Assembly (NCBI GenBank): GCA_025612245.1
Contig: JAAXKQ010000001.1
Location: 124,001 to 188,000, forward strand
Origin: Ignavibacteria bacterium
GTDB lineage: Bacteria > Bacteroidota > Ignavibacteria > Ignavibacteriales > SURF-24
Reading direction: 5' to 3'
DNA length: 64,000 nt
The position numbers and the translations under genes were made by a program. The first letter of the stretch is position 1; every line of letters begins with the position of its first letter. The notes beneath the pieces were generated by a model that was not told the origin of the DNA, did no database searches, and was given only the letters and a program-made list of their open reading frames with translations. Shown here in pieces: positions 22,309 through 34,942 of this stretch.

Positions 22309-22382
22309 CGGAACGTGGCGCAGCCCGGTAGCGTACTTGAATGGGGTTCAAGGGGTCGCGGGTTCAAATCCCGCCGTTCCGA
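22309..22382 (+). tRNA. tRNA-Pro, anticodon GGG
   Basis: A complete 74-nt cloverleaf: acceptor arms CGGAACG and CGTTCCG, D arm with GG in the loop, anticodon stem CTTGA/TCAAG with loop ATGGGGT (anticodon GGG), and T arm GCGGG-TTCAAAT-CCCGC. No CCA is encoded; the discriminator base is A. A terminator follows within a few bases. Confidence 0.96.
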
Positions 22383-22421: not shown

Positions 22422-22744
22422 ATTTACCGACTGATTAGAGGTTAAAGCATTATTGCTCATTTTCACTCATTTCCCCGTCAATTCGTGTTAAAAATCGTGT
22501 TAATTTTTGCACGAAATTCGTTTTAAAAATCCTTAAAAGGAACACGAACTATATTAAACTAAAAACCTATTATCCTGCTTGCTGGTTCCATGGACGGAAA
22601 CCTGTTAGCCTGGTGCGGAACTATTAATTCTTGCCAGCCCGATAAATTCACAGGATGTTTCACACACGATATTGCTGCATAACAAAATTAACTGTGAATT
22701 ATTTTTGCCTCCATTCTTTTTGCGGGATTACGGTTATTGGTAAT
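22422..22744. other. Gene-free stretch downstream of tRNA-Pro with short repeats
   Basis: No convincing gene. A near-identical direct repeat, TTCGTGTTAAAAATC (22482-22496) and TTCGTTTTAAAAATC (22517-22531), lies here, together with an inverted pair TTCGTGTT (22482-22489) and AACACGAA (22541-22548). Such clusters beside a tRNA 3' end recall integrase arm sites, but no integrase is present. Confidence 0.4.
22482..22548. repeat. Direct and inverted short repeats near the tRNA 3' end
   Basis: Two 15-bp direct copies differing at one position, plus an 8-bp inverted copy of the first half. The function is unknown; a relic attachment region or a protein binding site are both possible. Confidence 0.45.
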
Positions 22745-23191
22745 ATGGAAGAAAAAGAAACTAAATTCATACTTCTGGTTGAGGATAACCCGGGCGATAT
22801 ATTTCTTACGCAGCAGGCATTCAGGGAAAGCAAAACCACTAACATAATCCAGGTCGTAAAAAACGGCGTCGAATGCATGGAATTCCTGCGAAAAGAAGGA
22901 AGATTTGCCGGGGTACAAATGCCCGACATGATACTGCTTGACCTGAACCTCCCGAAGAAAAACGGCAGGGAAGTCCTGGCGGAAGTAAAGCACGACGATA
23001 AGCTTAAGTTCATTCCCGTTATTGTCCTTACCAGCTCACAGAATGAGAGCGACATTATTTCCAGCTACCAGCTTAATGCAAACTGCTATATTACAAAACC
23101 TGTTGACTATGACGAATTTATTCGCATTATTAAATCTATCGAGAATTTCTGGTTTACAACCGTAAGGCTTCCGAAAAAATGCTTAAATTAA
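22745..23191 (+). CDS. Single-domain response regulator (Rcp1-like)
   Basis: A receiver-only protein of 148 residues: acidic pocket in LVEDNPGD, phospho-acceptor Asp66 in MILLDLNLP, Thr96 in VIVLTSS and Lys118 in ITKPVD. The VEDNPGD start and the insertion around EFLRKEGRF match the Rcp1 type that partners with phytochrome or hybrid kinases. There is no output domain. ATG 22745 starts the domain correctly although the ribosome binding site is poor; the frame is open further left without support. No kinase is nearby. Confidence 0.85.
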   Translation: MEEKETKFILLVEDNPGDIFLTQQAFRESKTTNIIQVVKNGVECMEFLRKEGRFAGVQMPDMILLDLNLPKKNGREVLAEVKHDDKLKFIPVIVLTSSQNESDIISSYQLNANCYITKPVDYDEFIRIIKSIENFWFTTVRLPKKCLN

Positions 23192-23308
23192 AATCAGGGA
23201 ACATTTCCTTTTAGTGCCGGGTTTACCTATTTATTTACTAACATTTTATCTTTTATTTTAGTAAATTTTACGAGCTAAATTTATTTAAATAAAGCAAATA
23301 CCTGCTGT

Positions 23309-23719
23309 ATGAAAGAATCTCAGATTACAATCCTGCTTGTTGAAGATAACATGGGCGACGTGCATCTTATAAATGAGCTGATCCACGATACAGGAGCTTC
23401 AAATATCAAGGTTGAACAGGCTTTCCGCCTTTCTACGGGTATTCAGCGCCTGGATAAAGGGGGAATTGACCTCGTTCTGCTGGATCTGGGGCTTCCGGAC
23501 AGCATGGGTCTCGATACGCTGAAAAGAATCCTTCCTGAAACAAAGGGTGTTCCTGTCATTGTACTGACGGGCCTTGAGGATGAAGAGATAGGCATAAAAG
23601 CCGTTCAGGCAGGCGCGCAGGACTATCTTGTGAAATACCAGCTGGATCCCGTCCTCTTCATGCGCTCTATCCGCTTTGCAATTGAAAGAAAGCGCGTAAA
23701 CGAGATAAAGCAGCTTTAA
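23309..23719 (+). CDS. Second single-domain response regulator
   Basis: A receiver-only protein of 136 residues: LVEDNMGD, phospho-acceptor Asp59 in VLLDLGLP, Thr87 in VIVLTG and Lys109 in YLVKYQ. It diverges from the regulator 118 bp upstream (AGAQDYLVK rather than the ITKPVD form), so it is not a recent copy. It probably works with a hybrid histidine kinase encoded elsewhere. Confidence 0.85.
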   Translation: MKESQITILLVEDNMGDVHLINELIHDTGASNIKVEQAFRLSTGIQRLDKGGIDLVLLDLGLPDSMGLDTLKRILPETKGVPVIVLTGLEDEEIGIKAVQAGAQDYLVKYQLDPVLFMRSIRFAIERKRVNEIKQL

Positions 23720-24004
23720 GGAGTTTTAATTATGTTCCGCTGGTGGCTCCGGTGGCCGTAAAAGGAGCCATAATTGCCGCTTCCTCAGAGAAAAGAGGCT
23801 GCCATATTTCACATAGCTCATACCGGAAAAATCCATCCACTAATTTCTATACCCATTAATTTCTATTTTGTCGTTTACGAGGTTATTTCCTAAATTCACA
23901 TATTCAAAAACAGGCAATTTATTATGAACTTTGTTACAGATGAGCCTGTTAAGTTAATAGAAATATTGAATTAAAAATCGTATATTTTAAGCTGATTTTT
24001 AGAA

Positions 24005-25489
24005 TTGGATTTAAATTTGAATACAGATAAACCAAAGTCATTTTGCGGCATTTTCGGCACTTTCGGCACAGATGATGCAGCTTTCCTGACATACTACGGC
24101 CTTCATTCACTTCAGCACCGCGGCCAGGAGGCTTCCGGCATCGTAACAGCAGAAGAACTTAACGGGAAGGTAATTTTTAATATACATAAGAACCTTGGGC
24201 TTGTTTCTGAGGTCTTTCATGATCCTGATATACTAAAGCAGAACCTGAAGGGATTTTCGGCTATAGGACATAACCGTTATTCCACGACAGGTGCTTCTGA
24301 ATCCTTAAAGAATATACAGCCTTTTGTGGTTAATTACCGTATGGGACACCTTGCCGTTGCTCATAACGGAAACCTGACGAATGCGCATATACTGAGGGAA
24401 AATCTTGTCAATGAAGGCGCAATATTTCAGACCACAAGCGATACTGAGGTCATTCTTCACCTTATAGCCCGCAGCAAGCTGAACAACCAGGTACAGCAGA
24501 TTTTAGAGGCTTTAAGGAAAATTGAAGGCGCTTACTGTCTGGTGATACTTACTGAGGATAAACTCATTGCCGCAAGAGACCCTCATGGCTTCAGGCCTCT
24601 GTGCCTTGGGAGCGTTAACGGCAACTTTATTGTGGCTTCAGAGACCTGCGCACTGGACATCAACAGCGCAAAGTACATACGCGACATTGAGCCCGGCGAG
24701 CTGATTGTAATTGACAAGAAAGGCGCTGAAACAAAACAGGTAGAATCGTACAGGATTTATGACACGAAACCCGTGAAAAAACAGTGCGTGTTCGAATATA
24801 TATATTTCTCACGTCCGGACAGCAAAATATTCGGCCACAGCGTAGATAAGATCAGGAGAAAACTTGGGAAAGTCCTGGCAAAAAAGCACCCTGTAGTCGA
24901 CAAAGACGGCGAAAAAGTAATCGTAATCAGCGTTCCCGACAGCTCCAATACAGCTGCTCTGGGTTATGAAAGCCAGCTTGAGAAAGACGGCATCAGGGCA
25001 AAGTTTGAGCTCGGACTCATCAGGAGCCACTATGTCGGAAGGACGTTCATTCAGCCCGGTCAGACGAACAGGGAAATGGGTGTAAGATTTAAGTTTAATA
25101 TCGTGAAGGGAGTTCTTGAGAACCGTACGGTGGTTCTCATAGATGACTCGATTGTAAGGGGAACTACTTCAAAACAGCTGATCAGCCTGATAAAAGAAGC
25201 AAACCCCAAGGCAATTCATGTGAGGATCTCTTCGCCTCCGATTGTTTATCCCTGTTATTATGGAATGGACTTTCCTTCGAAGGAAGAACTGATTGCTAAC
25301 AGATTTGACGGTGATGTGGAAAAGATCAGAGAATACCTTGAAGTAGACAGCCTTGAGTACCTGACTACGGATGAACTGCTTGAGGCTATGGTGGATCAGG
25401 ATCAGTCCGATTTCTGTACGGCATGTTTCTCGGGCATTTACCCTACAAGGGTAAACGAGTCCTTTAATAAAAACGTATATGAAGATTAA
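24005..25489 (+). CDS. purF: Amidophosphoribosyltransferase
   Basis: Makes 5-phosphoribosylamine from PRPP and glutamine, the first committed step of purine synthesis. After a short propeptide-like leader, Cys14 in SFCGIFG is the N-terminal nucleophile of the glutaminase domain, followed by LQHRGQEASGI and GHNRYSTTG. The PRTase half has the PRPP loop VVLIDDSIVRGTTS. Late Cys residues (Cys in IVYPCYYG, and FCTACFSGIYP) resemble the 4Fe-4S ligands of the Bacillus-type enzyme. The start is TTG 24005; TTG 24017 would shorten the leader. Confidence 0.95.
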   Translation: MDLNLNTDKPKSFCGIFGTFGTDDAAFLTYYGLHSLQHRGQEASGIVTAEELNGKVIFNIHKNLGLVSEVFHDPDILKQNLKGFSAIGHNRYSTTGASESLKNIQPFVVNYRMGHLAVAHNGNLTNAHILRENLVNEGAIFQTTSDTEVILHLIARSKLNNQVQQILEALRKIEGAYCLVILTEDKLIAARDPHGFRPLCLGSVNGNFIVASETCALDINSAKYIRDIEPGELIVIDKKGAETKQVESYRIYDTKPVKKQCVFEYIYFSRPDSKIFGHSVDKIRRKLGKVLAKKHPVVDKDGEKVIVISVPDSSNTAALGYESQLEKDGIRAKFELGLIRSHYVGRTFIQPGQTNREMGVRFKFNIVKGVLENRTVVLIDDSIVRGTTSKQLISLIKEANPKAIHVRISSPPIVYPCYYGMDFPSKEELIANRFDGDVEKIREYLEVDSLEYLTTDELLEAMVDQDQSDFCTACFSGIYPTRVNESFNKNVYED

Positions 25490-25514
25490 TCCCATTTCTT
25501 AATACCGGAACTAT

Positions 25515-26105
25515 ATGATTAAACTCAGGGACGTGTATACCCGCTCGAACCTTTTAAGCCTTACCAGGCTCCTTTTGAGCGTACCGGTCTACTTCCTGCT
25601 CTTCAGGATAGAAGACTCGGCAAACTACAGGATTGAGATAATTGCCGTCCTCATTTTTGCGGCGGCAACCGATTTCCTGGACGGGTACTTAGCGCGCAAA
25701 TACAATGAAATTTCGGAAGCAGGGAAGATATTAGACCCTCTTGCCGATAAGGTGCTCGTTGGCGTCGTGACAATTCAGCTATTCGTGCTGGGAGAGATTC
25801 CCCCGGTATACTTTTTCTCTGTAATCGGCAGGGACCTGATTATATTCCTGGGGGGAATTTACGTTACAAAAAGGCTGGGCAAGGTTCTGCCTTCAAACCT
25901 GTTGGGCAAGATTACCGTTACATTCATTGCGGCATATTTACTGTCAATCATTCTGGGAGTTACGGACAGTGTTCCTTTCCTGTACGACCTCTTTTATTAC
26001 GTAAGCCTGATCTTAGTTTACGGCTCACTAATTGCATATATAATCAGGGCAAAAGAATCTCTAACGTGGAATAAAAATGAATCTGTTCAAGAACATCAAC
26101 TTTGA
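25515..26105 (+). CDS. pgsA: CDP-alcohol phosphatidyltransferase, PgsA-like
   Basis: Probably makes phosphatidylglycerol phosphate from CDP-diacylglycerol. The 196-residue membrane protein has the family signature D-x2-DG-x2-AR-x8-G-x3-D-x3-D in TDFLDGYLARKYNE...GKILDPLADKV (about residues 55-85) and six hydrophobic segments. NLLSLTRLLL near the start is typical of PgsA. The exact alcohol is not certain from sequence alone. It overlaps ftsY by 29 bp. Confidence 0.88.
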   Translation: MIKLRDVYTRSNLLSLTRLLLSVPVYFLLFRIEDSANYRIEIIAVLIFAAATDFLDGYLARKYNEISEAGKILDPLADKVLVGVVTIQLFVLGEIPPVYFFSVIGRDLIIFLGGIYVTKRLGKVLPSNLLGKITVTFIAAYLLSIILGVTDSVPFLYDLFYYVSLILVYGSLIAYIIRAKESLTWNKNESVQEHQL

Positions 26106-27036
26106 TAAGCTCAAAGACGGCCTTTCCAAGACCAGGGATAAGATCGTCACTAAGATAAATGAAACCATTACCGGCAAGGCAAAGCTGGATGAAGAGCTGC
26201 TTGAGGAAATTGAGGAAATTTTAATTACCAGCGACATCGGTTTCGACGTTGCTTCGAAAGTTATTGAAAATACCAGGGTAAGGCTCAGGGTTGAAAAAGA
26301 CAGGAGCAAGCTGAACGTAATTGACGCAATTAAGGAAGAGCTTGAGAAACTGTTGAACTCCTACGACACGAATTCCGAGTTCAACCGTATGGACAAGTTT
26401 AAGCCTTATGTTATTCTGGTTATTGGAGTTAACGGGGCCGGTAAAACCACTACCATAGGCAAGCTGGCTCATAACTACAAGCAGGCGGGACTCAACGTCA
26501 TTATAGGCTCAGCCGACACCTTCAGAGCCGCCGCAAACGAGCAGCTTGAAGTCTGGGCTAAACGCGCAGGAGTTGAAATCATACAAAGCACCACTGGAAG
26601 CGACCCTTCGGCGGTGGCATTCGACACGATGAATATAGCCAAAAAGAAAAATGCCGACGTCGTTTTGATAGATACCGCGGGGCGCCTGCACACGAAATCG
26701 AACCTCATGGAAGAGCTTAAAAAAATCAAGAAAGTCATGAGCAAGGTGGTGGATTATGCTCCCAATGAGACTTTCCTCGTGCTGGACGGCAATACGGGGC
26801 AGAATGCACTCATACAGGCCGAGAAATTCCGTGAAGTTACCGATATTACGGGACTTATAATAACAAAGCTGGATGGTACGGCAAAAGGCGGCGTAGTTTT
26901 CCAGATCTGCAGCCAGCAGAAAGTGCCTGTGAAGTACATCGGGGTTGGAGAGGGGATTGATGACCTACAGACTTTCGATGCACAGAGCTTCGTCTCGGCC
27001 CTCTTTTCTTCAGATGGGGTACAGCAGCAAGGCTGA
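26077..27036 (+). CDS. ftsY: Signal recognition particle receptor FtsY
   Basis: A GTPase that docks the SRP-ribosome complex at the membrane. The 319-residue protein has the N-domain helices, GVNGAGKTT (P-loop, 117-125), ADTFRAAANEQL, LIDTAGRLHT, ITKLDGTAKGG and IGVGEGIDDL, the full NG-domain set. The acidic A domain found in E. coli FtsY is absent, as in many bacteria. Its start lies inside the 3' end of pgsA (29 bp overlap), so translation is probably coupled. Confidence 0.96.
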   Translation: MNLFKNINFDKLKDGLSKTRDKIVTKINETITGKAKLDEELLEEIEEILITSDIGFDVASKVIENTRVRLRVEKDRSKLNVIDAIKEELEKLLNSYDTNSEFNRMDKFKPYVILVIGVNGAGKTTTIGKLAHNYKQAGLNVIIGSADTFRAAANEQLEVWAKRAGVEIIQSTTGSDPSAVAFDTMNIAKKKNADVVLIDTAGRLHTKSNLMEELKKIKKVMSKVVDYAPNETFLVLDGNTGQNALIQAEKFREVTDITGLIITKLDGTAKGGVVFQICSQQKVPVKYIGVGEGIDDLQTFDAQSFVSALFSSDGVQQQG

Positions 27037-27085
27037 TTAAGAGAATTCCCACTTTTCCCGTTAAAATCGCAAGAGAAAACACACC

Positions 27086-28012
27086 TTGAAGGAAAAAACA
27101 CTATTTATCATTAATCCCGAAGCGGGTAAAGGCAGAGGCAGGAAAATCCTGCCTCAAATGTTTCGTATACTCTCCGGGTATCCGCTCCGTACGGAAATAA
27201 TACTAACCGAAAGACCTAATCATGCGACAGAAATTGTAAGGCAGCACAGGAACGACTTTAAGACGATCTGCGCCGCGGGAGGGGATGGGACGCTTAATGA
27301 GGTCTTAAACGGTCTGGATGGCACTTCAGGCAACACTATAGGCATAATTCCCGTGGGCTCCGGAAATGACTTTGCCAGGACTGCCGGCATAGGCAAGAAT
27401 CTAAGTGAAGCATTGAAAGTTATCCTGGGTGGCGGGGCTAAAGTCAGGGAAATTGATACGGGATTCCTGAAATACAAGGAAAATAAGACAGAGAGTCCGG
27501 TGATATGCCGGCAGTTTATAAACAGCGCAGGAATTGGCTTTGATGCAATTGTTTCGGATTTGATAAAGAACAACAGCTTTTTTAAGGGGTTACCTCTATA
27601 CATTTCAGCCGTTATTCAGGCCTTATTCATGTACCGCCTTATGGATGTCAGCTGCAGCTTTGACGGGAATTTTATAATCAAGGGAAAGAAGCTATTAATT
27701 GCAATAAGCAACGGGAAAACCTATGGCGGAGGCCTCAGAGTAAATCCCGAAGCCGAGATAGATGACGGATTCCTGGATGCCTGTCTGGTAGCGGACATGT
27801 CAATAGGAAAGATAATCCGGGAATTCCATAAGTTTATCCGTGGGACGCACGCGAATGTGGAAGGAATAGACATAAGGCGCTTTAAGTCTGCGAGTGTCGG
27901 AACATTTAATCCGGTCTACATTCACACCGATGGCGAGGTAATTTCCAAGTCAGCTATTGAAGTTGAGATCGGCATCAATCCAATAAGGCAGAAGTTCATA
28001 TTTGCAGAGTAA
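27086..28012 (+). CDS. Diacylglycerol kinase-family lipid kinase
   Basis: A 308-residue soluble lipid kinase of the DagK/YegS group. It has IINPEAGKGRG, AAGGDGTLNEVLNG (nucleotide-binding GGDGT), PVGSGNDFA and NSAGIGFDA, then a beta-sandwich C-terminal part with the SNGKTYGGG and IHTDGE blocks. It would phosphorylate diacylglycerol or a related lipid for phospholipid turnover. The start is TTG 27086; no ATG fits better. A purine-rich repeat begins at its stop codon. Confidence 0.88.
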   Translation: MKEKTLFIINPEAGKGRGRKILPQMFRILSGYPLRTEIILTERPNHATEIVRQHRNDFKTICAAGGDGTLNEVLNGLDGTSGNTIGIIPVGSGNDFARTAGIGKNLSEALKVILGGGAKVREIDTGFLKYKENKTESPVICRQFINSAGIGFDAIVSDLIKNNSFFKGLPLYISAVIQALFMYRLMDVSCSFDGNFIIKGKKLLIAISNGKTYGGGLRVNPEAEIDDGFLDACLVADMSIGKIIREFHKFIRGTHANVEGIDIRRFKSASVGTFNPVYIHTDGEVISKSAIEVEIGINPIRQKFIFAE

Positions 28013-28070: not shown

Positions 28071-28166
28071 TAAGCAATATGCTCATTTAAATAGTTTTAT
28101 ACTAGTTTACATAATATACATTATCGGACAAAAGGAAAACTGGCCGGGGGAATTAAGCATGCTATG

Positions 28167-28198
28167 AAAAGCCCGATAATATTCATTTTCCGGGCTTT
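28167..28198 (-). terminator. Terminator-like hairpin behind the second tRNA-Pro copy
   Basis: Read on the minus strand, AAAGCCCG pairs with CGGGCTTT over a 16-base loop and ends in TTTT. It follows the tRNA-like sequence by 6 bases, as expected if that locus was once transcribed. Confidence 0.6.
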
Positions 28199-28204
28199 CT
28201 AGCC

Positions 28205-28275
28205 TCGAAACGGCGGGATAACCCGCGACCCCTTGAACCCCATTCAAGTACGCTACCGGGCTGCGCCACGTTCCA
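28205..28275 (-). pseudogene. tRNA-Pro (GGG) copy with a damaged T-loop
   Basis: On the minus strand this 71-nt sequence repeats the tRNA-Pro at 22309 almost exactly, including the D arm, the anticodon arm with GGG and the variable region. Differences: first base C to T, a C to T change in the 3' acceptor arm (giving a G-U pair), and loss of three bases (CAA) from the T-loop, leaving GCGGG-TTAT-CCCGC. The lost bases include the T-psi-C cytosine and A58, needed for the D-loop/T-loop contact, so normal tRNA function is unlikely. It starts 28 bp after the hbd stop. Confidence 0.85.
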
Positions 28276-28303: not shown

Positions 28304-29152
28304 TTAATACTTAAAGAACCCTTCTCCCGTCTTTCTTCCCAGCTTCTTTGCTGCAACCATCTTCTTTAATAATGGACAAGGACGGTACTTGCTGTCGTTA
28401 AAGCCATTGTATAAAACCTCCATTATTGCCAGACATACGTCGAGACCTATAAAGTCAGCCAGCGTCAATGGTCCCATGGGATGGTTCATGCCGAGCTTCA
28501 TAACGGTGTCTATGTCTTCTTTTGAAGCCACACCTTCCATCAGCGCATACACGGCTTCATTTATCATTGGCATCAGTATCCTGTTGCTGACGAATCCCGG
28601 ATAATCAAAGACCTCTACGGGCACCTTCTCAAGCCTTAGCGCTGCATCCCGGATGGTCTCAAATGTCTCACTATTCGTCGAATAGCCGCGGATTATTTCA
28701 ACAAGCTTCATCACAGGCACAGGATTCATGAAGTGCATCCCTATGAACTTTTCTGGACGGCTGGCCGCTGAGAGTTCCGTAATAGAAATTGATGAGGTAT
28801 TTGATGCAAAAATACATTCTGGCTTAAGGATGCTGTTTAACTTATTAAAAACAGATAATTTAGCCTCTTTATTCTCATAAACGGCTTCAACTGCAAGGTC
28901 CGAATCTCCGGGAGTGTTTTCCACGCCTACAAAGGGCTTTATACGGCTTAAGGTCAGGTCCTTTTCTTCCTTTGTAATTACCTGTTTAGATACCTGGCGT
29001 TCCAGGTTCCCCGATATTGTATCTATTCCTTTCTTTAAGAGTCCCTCTTCTACGTCAACTAAAAAGACATCAAATCCTTTTAATGCGAATACGTGAGCTA
29101 TTCCGTTTCCCATTGTTCCGGAGCCGATTACAGAAACCTTACTGATTGCCAT
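28304..29152 (-). CDS. hbd: 3-hydroxybutyryl-CoA dehydrogenase
   Basis: An NAD(P)-dependent oxidoreductase linking acetoacetyl-CoA and 3-hydroxybutyryl-CoA in butanoate or fatty-acid metabolism. The 282-residue protein has the Rossmann motif [29 protein letters not shown], the catalytic His in [15 protein letters not shown], and the C-terminal blocks [13 protein letters not shown] and [16 protein letters not shown]. The length matches Hbd/PaaH monomers, not the large FadB fusion. It is a single gene with the tRNA-Pro copy just downstream. Confidence 0.93.
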
Positions 29153-34063: not shown

Positions 34064-34942
34064 TTAAGATTTAGGATGAGCTTGTTTGTATATGTTCTTC
34101 AACCGCTCAATTGAAACGTGAGTGTAGATTTGAGTGGTCGACAAACTTTCATGACCCAGTATTTCCTTTACGGCAAGCAGGTCGGCTCCGTTATCCAGCA
34201 TATGGGTTGCCGCCGTATGCCTTAAGACGTGGGGGCTTTTCTTCTTAAGCTCCGTTTCCTCGCTTAGGTACCTGTTAATTATCCTATAAACGTAACGCGG
34301 GTAAATCCTTTTGCCTCTTGAAGTTACGAATATTGGATTAGTATACTCTAAAGATGCTCTTGAATCAAGATACTTCTTTACGACTTGAAGCGACTGTTTG
34401 CCAATAGGTACAATCCTTGTCTTGGAACCTTTTCCCGTCACCCTGACGGATCCCTTTTCAAAATCGATATCGCACACGTTAAGGCTGCAGAGCTCAGAGA
34501 CCCTGAGTGCACAGCTGTATAAGACTTCAACAACGGCATTGTGAAGAAGTTTCTCCTCCTTTTCCAGCTTTGTGGATAATTCATCCATTATCTTTTCTGG
34601 AACTACTTCAGGAAGTTTTCTTTTTACCTGGGGGTTTGAGATGCGCTTTAAGGGATTTGCCGGGACAATATTATCCCTTGATGCGTAATTAAAGAGGCTT
34701 CTTATAGCCGAAAGTTTTCTTGAAATGCTGCTCTTTTCGTACTCGCTGTTCAGGTTTATGCTGATAATATAGCGTCTTACCAGCTTTTCATTCACCTTTA
34801 GAATATCCGTACAGTTGCAGGATTCGCAATACTCACAGAACTGGATCAAATCCTGCCTGTAGGCTTTAACCGTATTTCCGGAAAACCTGCCGATTTTTTG
34901 CAGGTTTTCCAGAAAGTCCTCTATAACCCTTATAATTTCCAT
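34064..34942 (-). CDS. xerC: Tyrosine recombinase XerC/XerD type
   Basis: Resolves chromosome dimers at dif with its partner recombinase. The 292-residue protein has a SAM-like N-terminal domain and the full catalytic set: Arg147 (CALRVSEL), Lys171, His238-x2-Arg241 (PHVLRHTAATH), His264 (LGHESL) and Tyr273 (QIYTHV). Length and the neighbourhood of topA fit a housekeeping Xer rather than an integrase. Whether it is the C or D paralog is not certain. Confidence 0.9.
   Translation of the reverse strand: MEIIRVIEDFLENLQKIGRFSGNTVKAYRQDLIQFCEYCESCNCTDILKVNEKLVRRYIISINLNSEYEKSSISRKLSAIRSLFNYASRDNIVPANPLKRISNPQVKRKLPEVVPEKIMDELSTKLEKEEKLLHNAVVEVLYSCALRVSELCSLNVCDIDFEKGSVRVTGKGSKTRIVPIGKQSLQVVKKYLDSRASLEYTNPIFVTSRGKRIYPRYVYRIINRYLSEETELKKKSPHVLRHTAATHMLDNGADLLAVKEILGHESLSTTQIYTHVSIERLKNIYKQAHPKS

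Follow-up and report, generated by a model that had tools for sequence, protein, structure and literature searches.

In bacteria, tRNA pseudogenes and degenerate duplicates are known by resembling a functional tRNA of the same genome over their full length, and by a low covariance-model score, damaged conserved features and non-conservation. Stretches of tRNA genes are also repeated when integrative elements insert, the typical attachment-site copy being a 3' part of the gene, set as a direct repeat at the distal boundary of an integrase-carrying element; dif sites too are known as phage targets (PMC4246890). Another related group consists of tRNA-Pro bodies with conflicting identity signals. 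Among these, tRNA-ProX of Streptomyces and Kitasatospora combines foreign anticodons with a dedicated synthetase, ProRSx, and eukaryotic work has found tRNA-Pro with G3:U70 to be mischarged with alanine (PMC11415595). Alanine identity is set mainly by G3.U70, and in E. coli the C1-G72 pair acts as a strong determinant for proline (PMC9976931). We have analysed a second tRNA-Pro(GGG) sequence found in 64,000 nucleotides of an Ignavibacteria genome (hereafter the window; Table 1). This copy is very probably a pseudogene, a young and non-functional duplicate in the course of decay; it is inverted and close to the replication terminus, and its source is tRNA-Pro(GGG), otherwise a single-copy gene.

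Table 1. Features of the window, with the basis of each assignment.
Feature	Position	Strand	Basis
Intact parent tRNA-Pro(GGG), at its ancestral place downstream of a merR-like gene	22309..22382	plus	ARAGORN; Rfam, 60.4 bits; conserved neighbourhood
Core genes between the copies: two response regulators, purF, pgsA, ftsY, dgk	22655..28012	plus	ORFs, named from protein sequences
XerCD dif site, replication terminus	28105..28128	minus	Single match in window; core counts across genomes; GC-skew switch at ~28 kb
Hairpin following the copy, at which the hbd transcript probably terminates	28167..28199	minus	Fold of -12.6 kcal/mol, z -3.8
Degenerate full-length tRNA-Pro(GGG) copy	28205..28275	minus	Rfam; alignment with parent and relatives; not called by ARAGORN
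Shortened T-loop UUAU of the copy (3 nt gone from UUCAAAU)	28218..28221	minus	Sequence; alignment; Rfam alignment
hbd-like 3-hydroxyacyl-CoA dehydrogenase gene	28304..29152	minus	ORF; relatives 60-82% identical
Putative XerC-like recombinase gene	34064-34942		ORF, named from sequence

Relation of the copy to its parent

A local search of a 301-base stretch with Rfam RF00005 matched the copy from 28275 to 28205 on the minus strand, over model positions 1-71, with a score of 38.9 bits, which is above the gathering value of 29 and compares with 60.4 bits for the parent. The window-wide Rfam run missed the copy, and ARAGORN, which calls the parent as the only tRNA in the window, was silent on it. 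In the alignment the copy departs from the parent solely by C1->T (position 28275), by C70->T (position 28208, giving G3.U70) and by the replacement of the T-loop TTCAAAT by TTAT, the D arm, anticodon arm and variable loop being identical. An earlier, sequence-only reading of this DNA had described a minus-strand repeat of the tRNA-Pro with two changes in the acceptor arm and with unchanged anticodon and D arms, and the alignment and Rfam match bear this out exactly in coordinates and strand. It had also listed the T-psi-C cytosine and A58 among three lost T-loop bases: the three-base loss and the absence of C56 stand, the remaining two bases missing being two of A57-A59, so that the loss of A58 itself depends on the alignment.

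Copy and parent form an inverted repeat of 60 nt at 98% identity with 5855 nt separating the arms, and the next longest inverted repeat in the surrounding 11 kb has 23 nt at 74%. As the former far exceeds every other in this region, the resemblance is not due to chance. Folded in isolation, copy and parent alike fail to exceed shuffled sequence in stability (z -0.5 for the copy), and therefore folding alone cannot tell copy from parent. An assembly error, by which the T-loop deletion or the entire copy would be artefactual, deserves almost no credence: the genome is indeed a draft in 44 contigs, but the copy is located inside a contig of 461,695 bases, has unique flanks of its own and departs from the parent at three separate sites.

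The boundaries of the copy are near the mature tRNA ends. We have therefore considered retroposition of a mature tRNA, and found it unsupported, as the base following A73 is a G (A-GGC) and a trace of CCA is absent. A longer duplication was likewise set aside, for outside the tRNA the flanks have in common just an AAAT preceding it and, perhaps, a CTANAAAGCYC within the terminator, which we take as chance or boundary effects.

The conservation of the altered positions was analysed in an alignment of 36 intact gene rows from 32 relatives. About a dozen columns vary among these rows, and those changed in the copy are C at position 1 in 36/36, C at position 70 in 36/36 and the three T-loop columns in 36/36, 35/36 and 36/36; at every other column the copy is unchanged. 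Clearly, as the altered columns are conserved in 35 or 36 of the 36 rows, the changes fall on functional positions. These three mutational events show damage and do not amount to a statistical test of lost constraint; moreover, homology ends at C1 on one side of the copy, and C70 is four bases from its other edge, so that either of these changes could be a junction effect instead of a mutation. Over its 71 bases the copy has 2 substitutions, compared with 58 of 102 four-fold sites of hbd that differ from the congener, and if it is neutral this divergence would place the duplication much later than the split from the congener.

In a functional elongator tRNA the 7-nt T-loop has C56 and a T54-A58 pair, C56 pairing with G19 at the elbow of the molecule, and recognition by RNase P also involves the T-loop. 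The T-loop of the copy being UUAU, established tRNA biology predicts that, lacking C56 and a normal 7-nt loop, it would not establish the G19-C56 contact and would be a poor substrate for RNase P and for translation. The genome holds intact tRNA-Pro genes for GGG, UGG and CGG.

The spacer between dif and hbd

The copy is located between hbd and dif, a setting that was absent from the sequence-only reading. It begins 28 nt past the stop codon of hbd, on the same strand, and a scan for promoters, a weak guide as it models sigma-70 sites only, evidenced no promoter-like site nearby on this strand. If transcribed, the copy most likely rides on the 3' end of the hbd message by read-through, and it would then be transcribed only as part of that end. 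The terminator-like hairpin that had been reported next to it (28199-28167) is a plausible terminator, although its U-run is short (UUUUCAU) and the scan for consensus terminators did not call it. This arrangement, with the copy ahead of the hairpin, would also suit a kept tRNA-like element in the hbd 3' untranslated region, stabilising or processing the mRNA or acting as a decoy. We consider such a role very unlikely, as eight relatives are devoid of the copy downstream of hbd and its fold does not surpass shuffled sequence in stability.

The dif site, which reads TCCGATAATGTATATTATGTAAAC, is the only match to the dif pattern in the window, with 0 expected, and is composed of XerC and XerD half-sites flanking a 6-nt centre. 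Of the 59 genomes searched, 57 contain its 20-base core exactly once, and the reversed control pattern gave one match in total. GC skew is mainly positive to the left of ~28 kb and mainly negative to the right, and the dif region at ~28 kb is the replication terminus. Relatives belonging to three families of the order likewise have dif directly 3' of hbd, and many relatives carry an intact tRNA-Pro(GGG) at a distance of ~3-14 kb from dif.

The hbd protein has its closest named relatives in Ignavibacteria. The gene order in relatives is merR, tRNA-Pro(GGG), purF, pgsA, ftsY, mostly dgk, dif and hbd, the latter on the opposite strand, and the window follows this order, with its intact tRNA-Pro(GGG) at the ancestral place and the extra copy in the spacer between dif and hbd. 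In eight relatives, one of them the only congener, this spacer does not contain the copy, and in four of the eight the distance from dif to hbd is below 80 bases. The comparison left out six further loci, five for which the stretch at hand lies upstream of hbd and one that has no dif within 350 bases, and drew on one congener and no conspecific genome. The spacer of this genome has no significant similarity to those of the relatives. None of the 95 relatives has a second full-length tRNA-Pro(GGG), which makes the copy unique among the 96 genomes searched; the second matches in relatives are fragments, lie at a contig edge or, in the case of a 75% match, are hit better by a tRNA-Pro(CGG) query.

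Pieces of tRNA-Pro(GGG) are found elsewhere in seven relatives, the congener among them, as 3' parts or inner pieces, and seven intergenic loci carry either 3' halves, which are attachment-site like, or 21-54 nt pieces around the anticodon arm. When tRNA-Pro(CGG) was used as a control query the same genomes also gave partial or extra matches, and therefore these fragments are not special. In five genomes a second, weaker match resembling tRNA-Pro(CGG) (76-82%) is located ~200-310 nt from the main one, being either another tRNA or an old duplicate.

These data point to an inverted duplication of about one tRNA in length, which would have carried the copy over ~5.9 kb, past the replication terminus, to the short dif-hbd spacer. 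Possible routes include template switching and repair at converging forks. An alternative origin, to which we assign a small probability, is that a phage or integrative element with a tRNA-Pro copy inserted at dif via XerCD and later vanished, leaving only the tRNA behind; a local duplication would differ from this in origin only, the present function being unaffected. In its favour are the use of dif sites by phages (PMC4246890), the presence of the dif motif in two viral contigs that have no match to the host genes tested, and the resemblance of the 3' parts in some relatives to attachment-site copies. However, no viral contig matches the copy exactly (exact 55-nt pattern), phage records give only partial matches (86-88%), both dif-bearing contigs are devoid of a tRNA, the copy comprises the whole tRNA in inverted orientation, and the window holds only one dif. 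The two contigs, from IMG/VR, bear the Ignavibacteria-type dif motif at L203:795-819 and L204:2136-2160 (35,983 and 56,710 bases, respectively) and are candidate phages with integration through the host XerCD.

Decay, possible function and comparison with known systems

The acceptor changes, in creating G3.U70, have a consequence that the sequence-only reading did not mention: C70->U places the alanine determinant in a stem that goes with a non-alanine anticodon, and C1->U abolishes C1-G72. A functional mistranslating tRNA that joined a proline anticodon to an alanine identity in the acceptor would insert alanine at CCC and CCU codons, and both the determinants established in E. coli (PMC9976931) and the eukaryotic mischarging of G3:U70 tRNA-Pro (PMC11415595) fit such a scheme. 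However, the T-loop is broken, the copy is not conserved in relatives, the promoter scan did not point to dedicated expression, and in a decaying copy two transitions are nothing unusual, so that we regard this function as extremely improbable. Its specific form, in which an orphan tRNA with G3.U70 and no C1-G72 would be freed from the hbd transcript and insert alanine at proline codons in spite of a 4-nt T-loop, is just as hard to credit. Only if expressed would the copy bear on natural Pro-to-Ala mistranslation.

The near-mature ends and the untouched D and anticodon arms speak against a pseudogene to some extent, as they could also mean a kept tRNA body. Nevertheless, the evidence for a pseudogene is diverse: the copy is unique to one genome and its site is empty in relatives, invariant positions are damaged, the Rfam score drops and ARAGORN rejects the sequence, substitutions are few compared with four-fold sites, intact Pro tRNAs are present and no promoter-like site is seen. 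The sequence-only reading had left the choice between a young pseudogene and a kept, non-canonical tRNA acting as a decoy or in regulation. The former agrees with the finding of the copy here alone, with changes at invariant functional positions and a divergence far below that of four-fold sites relative to the congener; the latter finds no support, in view of the eight empty sites, the lack of second full-length copies in 95 relatives, the absence of a nearby promoter-like site in the scan and the usual complement of three tRNA-Pro genes.

As a pseudogene the copy is of little importance in itself. It does however offer a clean example of an inverted duplication in which one tRNA has crossed the replication terminus and come to lie between dif and hbd. 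It also indicates that such copies can escape both tRNA finders and Rfam scans of a whole window.

With tRNA-ProX/ProRSx and the mischarged G3:U70 variants the copy shares a tRNA-Pro body with conflicting identity signals; unlike in tRNA-ProX, its anticodon is ordinary, it is the acceptor stem that carries the conflict, and the T-loop has suffered damage. Its likeness to the attachment-site duplications of integrative elements lies in the repeated stretch of a tRNA gene, and 3' parts of the same tRNA are so placed in some relatives, but here it is the whole tRNA that is repeated, in inverted rather than direct orientation, with core genes (purF, pgsA, ftsY and mostly dgk being syntenic in relatives) and no visible integrase between the copies. 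The closest likeness is to bacterial tRNA pseudogenes, with which the copy shares full-length homology to a functional tRNA of its own genome, a low covariance-model score, damage at conserved positions and non-conservation in relatives; it differs from them in being inverted across the terminus and adjoining dif, and in that its damage is still slight.
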